Origin: Natrialba sp. SSL1
GTDB taxonomy: Archaea; Halobacteriota; Halobacteria; Halobacteriales; Natrialbaceae
Length of the DNA: 64,000 nucleotides
NCBI RefSeq assembly: GCF_001861355.1
Contig: NZ_MASN01000035.1
Coordinates: 248,001 to 312,000, forward strand
Direction: 5' to 3'
The translations under genes were made by a program, and so were the position numbers. The notes beneath the pieces are model-generated. The model was not told the DNA's origin. It worked only from the letters and a program-made list of their open reading frames with translations, and did not search any database. This document shows, one piece after another, positions 20,230 through 23,982 of this stretch; positions within the stretch are counted from its first letter, which is position 1, and every line of letters starts with the position of its first letter.

Positions 20230-21465
20230 ATGACAGATGGGTCAGAGAGAGACGGTGATGGGTGGGACGACCCGCCCGGACTCGAGAGGCCGTCGCCTGG
20301 CGCTCCCGTCGCAGAACGCTGTCGGCAGCGACTGGTGACCGACGGCGGTGAGACCGACGAGGCCGAGGCAGACGGCGACGATGAGCCTGAAACAGGTGGT
20401 GATAGCGCGGAAACTGACGAAGGCGAAGGCGACACTGCGGACGAAGGCGGAGGTGGTGACGCAGACGGAGATGGTGACGAGGACTCTGATGAGGAGGAAA
20501 GCGCAGTTGACGATGGTGAGTCAGCGGATACTGCGGACGACAATGCGGACGAGGAACCCGAGGAAAGCGACGGTGGTGACGATGGCGAGAATGGCGAGGA
20601 TGGCGACGATACCGATGGTGACGACAACGACGACGGCGACAACGGCGAGGAAGACGAAGAAGACCAGGAAGCCGACTCCGACGAGGCGGACGAAACGGAC
20701 GAACAGGAGAGTGACGACACAGTCACCAGCGACCACGTCGAGGACGCCGAGGACGTCTATCAGGACGACGACGCGAGCGGCGTCCTCCACCTCGATCTCG
20801 ACGGCCTGTTTCTCGACCTGTTGGGACTCGAGGTCAACCTGAACCCGGTCACCCTCGACGTCTCGGCCCGACCGGGGCAGAACAACCTGCTCGGGAACTT
20901 GCTGTCGACCGTTACCGGCTTACTGGACGGCCCCAGTGCACTGCTGGAAAAGGCCAAATCCCTCGCGGAGAGTGCGAAGTCGATGCTGAAAAAACCTGTT
21001 TCGATGCTCCGCTCTGCGCTTTCGAAGCCGGCCGAGGCGCTGAAATCGGCTCTCGGGAAGCCGATGAGTTGGCTCAAATCGCTCCCGAGTAAGCTGGTAC
21101 AGAAGCCGAAGTCGGTGATTGGACGGCTTCGCGGAGCCGGACAGGACGAAGAGACGGATGGAGAAGACGAAGAAACCGAAACCGAAACCGAGGACGAAGA
21201 CGACGAACCGACCGACGACACTCCCGGTCCCCTCTCCTCGGCTGCCAGTTCGGTCTCGAACTCGCTCTCCTCGGCGGGCGGAACGATGAAACAGAAGGCT
21301 CGCAGCCTCGTCCCGAGTTTCCCAGTCGAGGAACTCGTCGCAATCGTCGTCCGCGAGGTACTCGAGCAACTCCTCGAACAGACGGAGTCGAGCGGCGGAC
21401 GTGGTTCGGACGAACAGAACGGTTCGGATAGTCAGGCGGAGTCACAGCCGGAGGTCCAATCATGA
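20230..21465 (+). CDS. Acidic low-complexity protein with a central hydrophobic domain and 11-residue repeats
   Basis: This 411-residue protein has four parts. Residues 1-175 are an Asp/Glu-rich disordered region. Residues about 178-235 form a conserved-looking domain with HLDLDGLFLDLLGLEVNLNP and NNLLGNLLSTVTGLL, resembling a motif in predicted secreted or lipoprotein-like proteins of actinobacteria and haloarchaea. Residues 250-304 hold five 11-residue basic amphipathic repeats. After a second acidic stretch comes a short helix, FPVEELVAIVVREVLEQLLE. It is the first gene of four similar acidic genes and overlaps the next by 4 nt (ATGA). I cannot name a function; a structural or surface role is a guess. 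Confidence 0.8.
   Translation: MTDGSERDGDGWDDPPGLERPSPGAPVAERCRQRLVTDGGETDEAEADGDDEPETGGDSAETDEGEGDTADEGGGGDADGDGDEDSDEEESAVDDGESADTADDNADEEPEESDGGDDGENGEDGDDTDGDDNDDGDNGEEDEEDQEADSDEADETDEQESDDTVTSDHVEDAEDVYQDDDASGVLHLDLDGLFLDLLGLEVNLNPVTLDVSARPGQNNLLGNLLSTVTGLLDGPSALLEKAKSLAESAKSMLKKPVSMLRSALSKPAEALKSALGKPMSWLKSLPSKLVQKPKSVIGRLRGAGQDEETDGEDEETETETEDEDDEPTDDTPGPLSSAASSVSNSLSSAGGTMKQKARSLVPSFPVEELVAIVVREVLEQLLEQTESSGGRGSDEQNGSDSQAESQPEVQS
20977..21141 (+). repeat. Tandem 11-residue repeat coding region
   Basis: Five consecutive 11-mers are encoded: KSMLKKPVSML, RSALSKPAEAL, KSALGKPMSWL, KSLPSKLVQKP and KSVIGRLRGAG. The consensus is (K/R)SxLxKPxxxL. Eleven-residue periodicity forms an 11/3 amphipathic helix, as in synuclein-type lipid-surface binders. 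This basic block contrasts with the acidic rest of the protein. Confidence 0.7.
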
Positions 21466-22097
21466 GTGACGATTCTACGTCAGGTTCAGATCCAGATTCG
21501 AATGCGGAGGAAGCGGAGGGGACAGAAACAGACTCGGACTCGGACTCGGGGGCAAACTCGAACTCGAGTACCGACACGACCGACGAGAGTAGCTCGCTCG
21601 TTGAGCGAATCGATTACGAGAAAATCGTCGAGAATATCGAGATCCAGGAACTACTGGAGGGGACGCAGTGGGAGGGTGAACTCGACGAAGAGAAGCCACT
21701 TGGCGAGTCCCTCGGCGGGTTGATCGGTGCAGTCGTAGGTCGAAAGATCGGTGCGAGTCTCGGGCGGACGATCGGTGAGATGGCGCTGGAGGAGGTCCTC
21801 AGTCGTGGAGACGAAGATGCAGAGGCAGAGGAAGATGAAGACTCGGATGCAGAGGCAGACGAAAGCGACGAAGCAGAAGCCGAAGACGAAACGGAAGACG
21901 AAGAGAGTGAGGACGGAGCGGAGGATGAAGGCGACGGTGGGGAAGATGCAGACGACAATGATGATTCAGCCGGTGACGACGAGGAGAGTGGCGACGGTGA
22001 GAGCGAAGACGAAGATGACGACTCCGACGGAGAGAACGGAGACGAAGACGACGATGAAGACGACGAGGACACCGAGAACGACTCCGAGGATGACTAA
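21462..22097 (+). CDS. Acidic protein with a glycine-zipper segment (first paralogue)
   Basis: This 211-residue protein has a Ser/Asp-rich N-terminus and a helix VERIDYEKIVENIEIQELLE (about 47-66). The glycine zipper LGGLIGAVVGRKIGASLGRT (about residues 84-103) continues to IGEMALEEVLS. After that comes a tail of about 95 residues that is almost purely Asp, Glu, Ser and Gly. The zipper has glycine at four-residue spacing and could insert in membranes or self-assemble. The helix plus zipper is clearly related to the next gene. Translation is coupled to the preceding gene by an ATGA overlap. No function is known. Confidence 0.78.
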   Translation: MSDDSTSGSDPDSNAEEAEGTETDSDSDSGANSNSSTDTTDESSSLVERIDYEKIVENIEIQELLEGTQWEGELDEEKPLGESLGGLIGAVVGRKIGASLGRTIGEMALEEVLSRGDEDAEAEEDEDSDAEADESDEAEAEDETEDEESEDGAEDEGDGGEDADDNDDSAGDDEESGDGESEDEDDDSDGENGDEDDDEDDEDTENDSEDD

Positions 22098-22151
22098 CAC
22101 CCACTGCCACGACCACCCCCGACGGGCACGATCGAACCGAGGGGACTCGCT

Positions 22152-22967
22152 ATGAGTGAGGACTCCAGCCTAAAACAGCTCGTCGCCGACGAGGTCTCAG
22201 ACCAACTCGACGTCGCGGAGGTCATCAACGGCGGCTCACTCGAGGACGGTATCGACGCGGGCGAGATCGGCGCTGCAGTCGGCCGGCAATTCGGCGAGCA
22301 AGTCGGCCGAAACGTCGGCGCGTCAGTTGGTGGGGAGGTTCACGAGGTGCTCTCGAGTGCAGTCCAAGAGCGCGGCGAAGAGCGTGAGGAGGATGCTGAC
22401 GATGAAGACGAGGCCGAGGCTGAAGCTGAAGCCGAAGACGAAGCCGATGAGGGCGGTCGACTCCCAACACAGCTGCTCACCGAACTCGCAGCGGCGATTC
22501 GACGCGGAGTCACGACGGCACTCGAGGGCAGCGATGCGCGTGAGTCCGCCGAGTCGGTTGCCCAGAATCTCGCAGACGGGACGAGTCTCGAAGGTGTGGT
22601 CGATGAGGCGACAGGTGAGGAAGATGCTGAGGCGGACGAGGCTGACACCGACGACGGAGAGGGTGAAGACGAAGAAGGAGATGAAGCGGATGCAGACGAA
22701 GACCAACAGGAAACAGACGAGTCAGGCCTCGAACAGTCCGTGGATGACCTCGAGAATCTCCGCCGGGAAACGCTGGTCGACTTTCTCGGCGTGATGTCAT
22801 ACGAGGATCTCCAGTCGGTTGCCAAGGACGTCGGCGTCAAGGCGAATCTCAGTCGCGAGGAGATGACGGACGAAATCGTCGACACGGTCACCGACGATGG
22901 CGACGATGCTGATGCAGACGAGGGAATCGATGGGGATGGGGACGGTGACGAGGACGAAGACGAGTAA
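22152..22967 (+). CDS. Acidic protein with glycine-zipper and C-terminal helical domain (second paralogue)
   Basis: This 271-residue protein begins with a helical region LKQLVADEVSDQLDVAEVIN and a glycine zipper EIGAAVGRQFGEQVGRNVGA (about 37-56) that aligns with IGAVVGRKIGASLGRTIG of the upstream protein. An acidic stretch, a helix LPTQLLTELAAAIRRGVTTA and another acidic linker follow. A folded-looking C-terminal part, RRETLVDFLGVMSYEDLQSV then SREEMTDEIVDTV, resembles a small SAP/Rho-N-like helical module. It lies 54 bp after the first paralogue, likely in one operon. Function is unknown. Confidence 0.78.
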   Translation: MSEDSSLKQLVADEVSDQLDVAEVINGGSLEDGIDAGEIGAAVGRQFGEQVGRNVGASVGGEVHEVLSSAVQERGEEREEDADDEDEAEAEAEAEDEADEGGRLPTQLLTELAAAIRRGVTTALEGSDARESAESVAQNLADGTSLEGVVDEATGEEDAEADEADTDDGEGEDEEGDEADADEDQQETDESGLEQSVDDLENLRRETLVDFLGVMSYEDLQSVAKDVGVKANLSREEMTDEIVDTVTDDGDDADADEGIDGDGDGDEDEDE

Positions 22968-23079
22968 CCCAAACGAACACCAAACTCAGACACCAGCACT
23001 CCACAGCGTTACCCCCGAACCCGGAACTGGCCCGGCCAACGTTCACGGCACTGGCGACCGTTCGACGAACGAGAGCCCC

Positions 23080-23982
23080 ATGAGTGACACCGACGACTCC
23101 CAGGACCTCCAGGAACAGGTGACCGACCTGCTGGAGACGGCCGACGCCGAGACCGGTGCACTGGCCACAGACACCGACACACCGAGCGGGTCGACGATGG
23201 CAACTCTCTCGGAAACCGCCAGCGACCTTCTCGAGTCGGCCGAGCCGCAGGACCTTCTCGAGGCGGTCGGCCTCGGGACGTTGCCAGACGGCTCCGAACC
23301 GGAGACGATTCCGGCAGCGATCGCACAGGGCGACCCGGAACACGTCGAGGATCTCGAGCGCCTCCTGCGGCTGGCGAGGGTGGGGGAGAGCACAGACGAG
23401 GAGGGACTCGAGGACGCCGTCGGCGGATTACAAACGGCGATTCGTGAGCACCGGGACACGGCGGCTGATGAGCCGGCCGGTGACGACGAAGGCACGGCGG
23501 CAGATGGCGACGAGGATGGAGCAGAAGAGGGAGATGAGGACAGCGACAGCGGCAGCAGCAGTGACAACGGCACCGATGACGACGACACCGAGAGTGACAG
23601 TGACAGCGCCACCGACGACGTACTCGAGTTCGTCGATGACGAACTAGGCGATGCGTTGGGCGACCGGGTGTCGTCGTTCAGTGAGGATGTAGCGGGGCTT
23701 CGAGAGAAGGTGAGTTCGGTAGGTGGGGAGAGCGAAGCGGACGCGAACGCTGACGCTGACGATGAGGATGACGGTGACGGCCCAGATGCCGATGACGACG
23801 ATGACAGACTGCTGGACGACGGCCTCGGTGCTGATCTCGAGCCCGACCTCGGTACTGGCTCAGATGACGGACAGACCTCGCGCGGCGTCGTTCGCTACTC
23901 GACACTGGCTCCATCGCCTTCGAAGCGGGCCGACATGCGGTCGCCGGCTCGGTTTTCGACGATGCCGAAGAAAGACGAGTGA
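23080..23982 (+). CDS. Acidic helical protein, fourth gene of the acidic cluster
   Basis: This 300-residue protein starts MSDTDDSQDLQEQVTDLLE (ATG at 23080; an in-frame upstream extension is unlikely shadow sequence). The N-terminal half is helical and well composed: SETASDLLESAEPQDLLEAV, GLGTLPDGSEPETIPAAIAQ, and DVEDLERLLRLARVG-like segments. After an acidic spacer comes another helix (VLEFVDDELGDALGDRVSSF), a second acidic spacer, and a basic end with SPSKRADMRSPARFSTMPK. The basic tail after an acidic body is unusual. It is probably in one operon with the three upstream genes. I do not recognise a family. Confidence 0.75.
   Translation: MSDTDDSQDLQEQVTDLLETADAETGALATDTDTPSGSTMATLSETASDLLESAEPQDLLEAVGLGTLPDGSEPETIPAAIAQGDPEHVEDLERLLRLARVGESTDEEGLEDAVGGLQTAIREHRDTAADEPAGDDEGTAADGDEDGAEEGDEDSDSGSSSDNGTDDDDTESDSDSATDDVLEFVDDELGDALGDRVSSFSEDVAGLREKVSSVGGESEADANADADDEDDGDGPDADDDDDRLLDDGLGADLEPDLGTGSDDGQTSRGVVRYSTLAPSPSKRADMRSPARFSTMPKKDE

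Follow-up and report, generated by a model that had tools for sequence, protein, structure and literature searches.

Four adjacent genes for strongly acidic proteins in Natrialba sp. SSL1, here genes 1 to 4, are very probably associated with gas vesicles. Our main reading, to which we assign a probability of roughly 0.6, is that they form an accessory module of a type of haloarchaeal gas vesicle whose gvp cluster lacks gvpC and gvpDE, i.e., a shell-bound set of coat and assembly proteins that does the job of GvpC. Our computational analyses revealed that (i) the four genes are a conserved unit; (ii) this unit is strictly dependent on gvp genes; (iii) it is inserted into gvp operons; (iv) gene 4 is homologous to gvpI; and (v) the unit avoids GvpC.

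Gas vesicles are buoyancy organelles that also attract interest for imaging and display, and their inventory in haloarchaea has been put at ~14 gvp genes. While gas vesicles are known, the searchable literature does not report an accessory module as large as this one that includes a GvpI paralogue and avoids GvpC; in that literature, which leaves most subscription journals outside its scope, we found no link between the four-gene cluster and gas vesicles. Reviews describe the gvp clusters of the Natrialba type as lacking gvpC and the species that carry them as forming no visible vesicles. The missing parts may merely lie at other chromosomal sites. In that case, the 11 gvp genes regarded as enough for these species do not make up the full set, genes 1 to 4 would provide new surface proteins for engineering, and adding them makes the dispensability of GvpC directly testable.

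Layout and composition of the four genes

Within the window, i.e., the whole stretch of 64,000 nucleotides that was analysed, the four genes lie in tandem on the plus strand (Table 1). This layout had been reported in the preliminary description, and we recovered both the ATGA overlap of genes 1 and 2 and the gaps of 54 bp (genes 2 and 3) and 112 bp (genes 3 and 4). The extreme acidity was likewise confirmed: Asp and Glu make up 30, 45, 35, and 31% of the products of genes 1, 2, 3, and 4, respectively, compared with a median of 18% among the 44 other called open reading frames in the window, whose highest value is 29%. Folded pieces had been described amid the acidic stretches, and conserved folded parts were indeed found in the four proteins. 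These parts are modular and comprise a core and a helix in gene 1, a zipper and a three-helix domain in gene 3, and a segment and a tail in gene 4. Searches of all four proteins against Pfam and NCBIfam gave zero models above cut-off; the earlier statement that they belong to no known family holds in this sense but not for gene 4, which compares as a GvpI paralogue. The proteins start with MTDGSERDGDG, MSDDSTSG, MSEDSSLK, and MSDTDDSQ (genes 1 to 4), and direct reading of these sequences gave no signal peptide at the start of any of them.

Table 1. Positions in the window of genes 1 to 4 and of their conserved or distinctive parts
Feature	Position	Strand	Description
Gene 1	20230..21465	+	acidic protein of 411 aa that has one conserved core of 50 residues; homologue embedded in the Halocatena salina gvpF-M operon
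Gene 1 conserved core VLHLDLDGLFLDLLGLEVNLNPVTLDVSARPGQNNLLGNLLSTVTGLLDG	20782..20931	+	41 homologues, two of them bacterial, share 18 invariant columns
Gene 1 basic 11-residue repeat region	20929..21138	+	lineage-specific; 11-residue periodicity stronger than in any shuffle
Gene 1 conserved C-terminal amphipathic helix PVEELVAIVVREVLEQLLEQ	21325..21396	+	kept in alignment A4; block pLDDT up to 89
Gene 2	21462..22097	+	acidic glycine-zipper protein of 211 aa, a relative of the gene 3 N-terminal part
Gene 2 glycine-zipper segment	21702..21776	+	GxxxG enrichment; Pfam Gly-zipper matched weakly at E 0.12, short of its cut-off
Gene 3	22152..22967	+	271-aa acidic protein with a glycine-zipper helix and a C-terminal three-helix domain
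Gene 3 long helix with glycine zipper	22257..22400	+	AlphaFold2 helix 36-83; zipper part pLDDT ~80-88
Gene 3 Rho_N/SAP-like three-helix domain	22740..22907	+	pLDDT 88-95 (AlphaFold2)
Gene 4	23080..23982	+	300-aa acidic protein; GvpI paralogue by profile comparison
Gene 4 helical segment common to acidic GvpI	23188..23397	+	prob 97.7 and E 1.7e-12 with trimmed profiles
Gene 4 C-terminal double ST-P motif RYSTLAPSPSKRADMRSPARFSTMPKK, common to GvpI	23866..23979	+	trimmed profiles, acidic GvpI, prob 94, E 1.4e-7

The genes are a conserved unit tied to gas-vesicle genes

Based on single-protein searches in 61 relatives, genes 1, 3, and 4 occur together and in order in nearly all Natrialbaceae; a weak gene 1 match in genome G054 was handled as noise. 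Among 73 loci from named genomes, the complete order of genes 1 to 4 is kept in nearly all Natrialbaceae and is also found in Haladaptatus, Haloarcula, Halohasta, Halomarina, Halogeometricum, and others. The finding that would have refuted the preliminary description, four genes unlinked in other genomes, was thus not made; linkage and order extend to several other haloarchaeal families.

We surveyed 293 order-wide genomes that are at least 90% complete. PF00741 (gvpA/J/M) is present in 123 of these genomes and the core of gene 1 in 99, every one of which also has PF00741 (Fisher 1.7e-55, kinship ignored). Outside Natrialbaceae, 37 of 37 genomes with gene 1 have PF00741 (Fisher 2e-27, kinship ignored). 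Within Natrialbaceae, the cluster usually lies far from the gvp genes; yet, gene 1 is missing in all seven gvp-negative genomes, which represent four genera. Because the loci are mostly unlinked in this family, this pattern argues for coupled loss of gene 1 and gvp.

In some lineages, the cluster genes proved to be a physical part of gvp clusters. Of 34 mapped non-Natrialbaceae genomes, 16 have no more than 6 kb between gene 1 and gvpA/J/M (~4e-21 under a chance model), and three outgroup loci found via cluster genes turned out to contain gas-vesicle genes; by Pfam, locus L054 has gvpF, gvpL, gvpA/J/M, gvpG, gvpH, and gvpO. An annotated plasmid of Halocatena salina carries a divergent gvpO-gvpA pair and the series gvpF-gvpG-gvpH-gene 1-gene 2/3-gvpI-gvpJ-gvpK-gvpL-gvpM with mostly overlapping ends, in which gene 1, gene 2/3, and gvpI are annotated as hypothetical. 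A single zipper protein adjoins gene 1 in the operon of Halocatena and of genome G041. In Haladaptatus halobius, the four genes are on one plasmid with the gvp cluster, ~12 kb from it, and in one Natrialbaceae genome (G290, locus L124), all four directly adjoin gvpO-A/F-G-H-I-J-K-L. Linkage to gvp was also found in Halohasta, Halococcus, Halocatena, and metagenome-assembled genomes. Several non-Natrialbaceae gvp clusters have a zinc-ribbon protein of 111-117 aa encoded between gvpO/gvpA and the gene 1 homologue (L055:8779-9117, L123:7339-7692, and L126:6695-7030), a possible further component.

Gene 4 is related to GvpI

In hhalign comparisons, gene 4 matched the proteins encoded in the gvpI position with prob 99 and E 3.8e-18. 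Using trimmed profiles, from which acidic linkers were removed before the comparison, the match to acidic GvpI was recovered in a helical segment and in a C-terminal motif (Table 1), in which gene 4 has the GvpI pattern xSTxP...RxSTxP; among the negative controls, trimmed segments of genes 1 and 3 gave prob 1 or less and whole gene 3 gave prob 0.1. Trimmed comparison of the C-terminal motif with basic GvpI gave prob 40 and E 2.9e-4, and the direct match of gene 4 to basic GvpI is weak (prob 39). The match between acidic GvpI and the basic, Halobacterium-type GvpI of gvpC-containing clusters has prob 98 and E 3e-14, and the two have the C-terminus in common. Judged by these profiles, gene 4 is a GvpI paralogue, the kinship of which to basic GvpI is transitive via acidic GvpI. 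In its own genome, the site between gvpH and gvpJ is occupied by the true gvpI (L070:12481-13512), arguing that gene 4 is a paralogue and not an orthologue. Gene 4 has the helical segment and the double ST-P C-terminus of long acidic GvpI; however, it lacks the K/R-rich N-terminus and the terminal R-x-YG-x-R box and is encoded outside gvpF-M in the same genome as a true gvpI. The GvpI homologue of N. magadii carries an N-terminal extension of >200 residues (PMC3403918).

Conserved parts of genes 1 to 3

The 50-residue core of gene 1 has the invariant motif form LLGLEV...NLLGNLL. The basic 11-residue repeat of the preliminary description (residues ~234-303) is real, exceeding 5000 of 5000 shuffles, but not conserved: the 11-mers are absent or degenerate in non-Natrialbaceae homologues, which keep only the core, N-terminal to the repeat, and the C-terminal helix. 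The repeats were accordingly rejected as a functional hallmark of gene 1. An AlphaFold2 model of residues 181-411 has a pTM of 0.25 and does not give the core with confidence. A derivation of the core from GvpA/J/M was also rejected (hhalign prob 0.1), and searches with Pfam, PF05465, and hhalign found no homology of the cluster proteins to GvpC or GvpA.

The glycine zippers described for genes 2 and 3 were substantiated by GxxxG runs above those in shuffles (P<0.0002 and P 0.005, respectively). Neither gene reaches the cut-off of the Pfam glycine-zipper families (12.7 bits versus 25 for gene 2). G44, G48, G52, R53, and G56 are invariant in the zipper of gene 3, and a gene 3 query matches the gene 2 positions in other genomes, relating gene 2 to the N-terminal part of gene 3. 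Zipper proteins with a short helical tail that are relatives of genes 2 and 3 (L086:3247-3864, L112:6756-7436, and L114:7563-8279) are encoded inside gvp clusters without gene 1 or accompany a complete set of genes 1 to 4; because of these relatives, the zipper family may be wider in distribution than gene 1.

The predicted C-terminal helical domain of gene 3 is suggestive of the Rho_N/SAP three-helix domains. A Rho_N profile matches 6 of 29 gene 3 family members (best E 0.0023, below curated cut-offs), and Rho is the top Foldseek match with prob 0.87 but E 3.3, no match reaching E<=0.001. The version in gene 3 differs from Rho_N/SAP domains in staying below curated cut-offs and in being fused to a glycine-zipper helix. 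In other haloarchaea, a Rho_N-like domain of this type is also found as an extension of ribosomal protein S3 (two genomes) and of an Hsp20 protein (L057:8223-9170, L059:7323-8441, and L058:7955-8551). Gene 3-like matches in genomes G046, G044, and G059 were rejected as distant synteny, being Rho_N-like tails on S3 and Hsp20.

The cluster avoids GvpC

PF05465 (Halo_GVPC) is strong in eight genomes, all of which have gvp genes and none of which has gene 1; this exclusion has p 7e-7 among gvp-positive genomes and 1e-4 outside Natrialbaceae (kinship ignored in both). Weak PF05465 matches in genomes G075, G081, and G096 were handled as noise. Genome G012, a gvp-positive member of Natrialbaceae without the four genes, encodes a 416-aa GvpC relative between gvpA and gvpN (E 1e-5). 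This divergent GvpC (L071:11684-12934) is missed by PF05465 and has a possible SAP-like C-terminal segment; its likeness to the domain of gene 3 is by eye only and was rejected, with BLAST giving no support. G012 and G088 both have GvpC and lack gene 1, and neither carries gvpD or gvpE at the locus; in these two genomes, the exclusion of gene 1 therefore tracks GvpC and not gvpDE. Neither gene 1 nor GvpC is obligatory, because ~15 gvp-positive genomes have neither gene 1 nor a recognised GvpC.

The gvp cluster of the own genome (L070) has gvpO, N, A, F, G, I, J, K, L, and M, with the gvpH position skipped by gene calling; no gvpC, gvpD, or gvpE was found in it. The four cluster proteins resemble GvpC in being acidic, non-GvpA, and strictly tied to gvp, and gene 1 and GvpC occupy the same phylogenetic niche and are mutually exclusive. 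The cluster differs from GvpC in having four proteins instead of one and in showing no match to the PF05465 repeats. Many non-Natrialbaceae gvpC-less clusters also have no gvpN match (L084, L112, L114, L116, L118-L121, and L123-L126), making their gvp set even smaller.

Natrialba magadii, Natrinema pellirubrum, Halopiger xanaduensis, Haladaptatus paucihalophilus, and Natronobacterium gregoryi were reported to lack gvpC and gvpDE and to be Vac- (PMC4390858). In the table of a later review, gvpC is entered for these species (PMC9501494); against this table, the N. magadii genome paper (PMC3403918) and our searches concur on its absence.

Proposed role and alternatives

In Halobacterium, GvpC coats and shapes the shell, GvpI pairs with GvpH and binds GvpL, GvpF, and GvpC, and loss of GvpI gives very long vesicles (PMC7688916, PMC9501494). 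From the results above, we infer a location of the four proteins on the vesicle shell, an order of docking, and a coat function. Because Halobacterium GvpI interacts with GvpH, GvpL, GvpF, and GvpC, gene 4 would be the part that anchors the module to the GvpF/L/H/I assembly complex. The zipper helices of genes 2 and 3 together with the core and C-terminal helix of gene 1 may mediate mutual binding and binding to the GvpA shell, and the long acidic tails could form a hydrated outer brush that faces the cytoplasm in molar salt. The module would then do the shape-setting and reinforcing done elsewhere by GvpC. The most likely single role, which we put forward tentatively, is that of an alternative surface coat and assembly factor replacing GvpC; that the proteins are a coat substituting for GvpC is a possibility on which we would not insist. 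In the same cautious sense, there could be a second widespread class of haloarchaeal gas vesicle, or of a similar particle, in which genes 1 to 4 replace the GvpC coat and are docked via the GvpI paralogue. The preliminary description had proposed a self-assembling structure. This part stood, as the four genes are a conserved unit and likely act at such a structure; the lipid, granule, and secreted-matrix specifics are unsupported, with signal peptides absent from all four proteins and no tie to lipid or storage granules. Synteny, co-occurrence, and the homology of gene 4 to GvpI point to the gas vesicle, a link that the description had missed.

The coat role is the step that we trust least. 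Its main rival, which we consider unlikely, is that the four proteins are assembly factors and not coat, acting as transient chaperones or length regulators of vesicle nucleation with GvpF-M, like GvpH and GvpI. The GvpI paralogy of gene 4 agrees with this idea, as does the position of the gene 1 and gene 2/3 homologues, which are not with gvpA but in the gvpF-M operon, flanked by gvpH and gvpI; however, it does not predict the avoidance of a structural protein such as GvpC, and long acidic tails fit a surface role, although a chaperone role is still compatible with them.

It is improbable, in our view, that the gvp genes of these species build a different GvpA-based particle, a small non-buoyant compartment with proteins 1 to 4 as its specific coat. 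The named species are Vac- despite conserved gvp genes, and many clusters outside Natrialbaceae have no gvpN match; however, Vac- may only mean not induced. The same phenotype of the named gvpC-less species speaks against the gas-vesicle reading, as no vesicle bearing the cluster proteins has been seen.

Slightly less probable still is a regulatory module in place of GvpD/GvpE, whose nucleic-acid-binding part would be the Rho_N/SAP-like domain of gene 3. This fold and the absence of gvpDE from the gvp clusters of these genomes are in line with it; however, G088 and G012, with GvpC and no gvpDE at the locus, also lack gene 1, no HTH or ATPase domain was found in the four proteins, and the presence of a Rho_N-like domain on S3 and Hsp20 argues that it is not regulator-specific.

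It is very improbable that the proteins are unrelated extracellular-matrix or storage-granule proteins that co-occur with gvp by chance, as the core of gene 1 in secreted bacterial proteins and the mostly distant position of the cluster from gvp in Natrialbaceae might suggest, given the lack of signal peptides, the co-occurrence in 99 of 99 genomes, the insertion into operons, and the homology of gene 4 to GvpI. Those bacterial proteins, from Salipaludibacillus, also speak against the gas-vesicle reading. Two of them (L185:5638-6225 and L192:5569-6159) terminate in the gene 1-type core, and no Pfam or NCBIfam model covers this shared part. They differ from gene 1 in having an apparent signal peptide and gvp-free surroundings. 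Their core is 47-49% identical to that of gene 1 over the aligned stretch (alignment A4), and its occurrence in secreted proteins without gvp neighbours suggests that the core may be a general surface- or interface-binding module.
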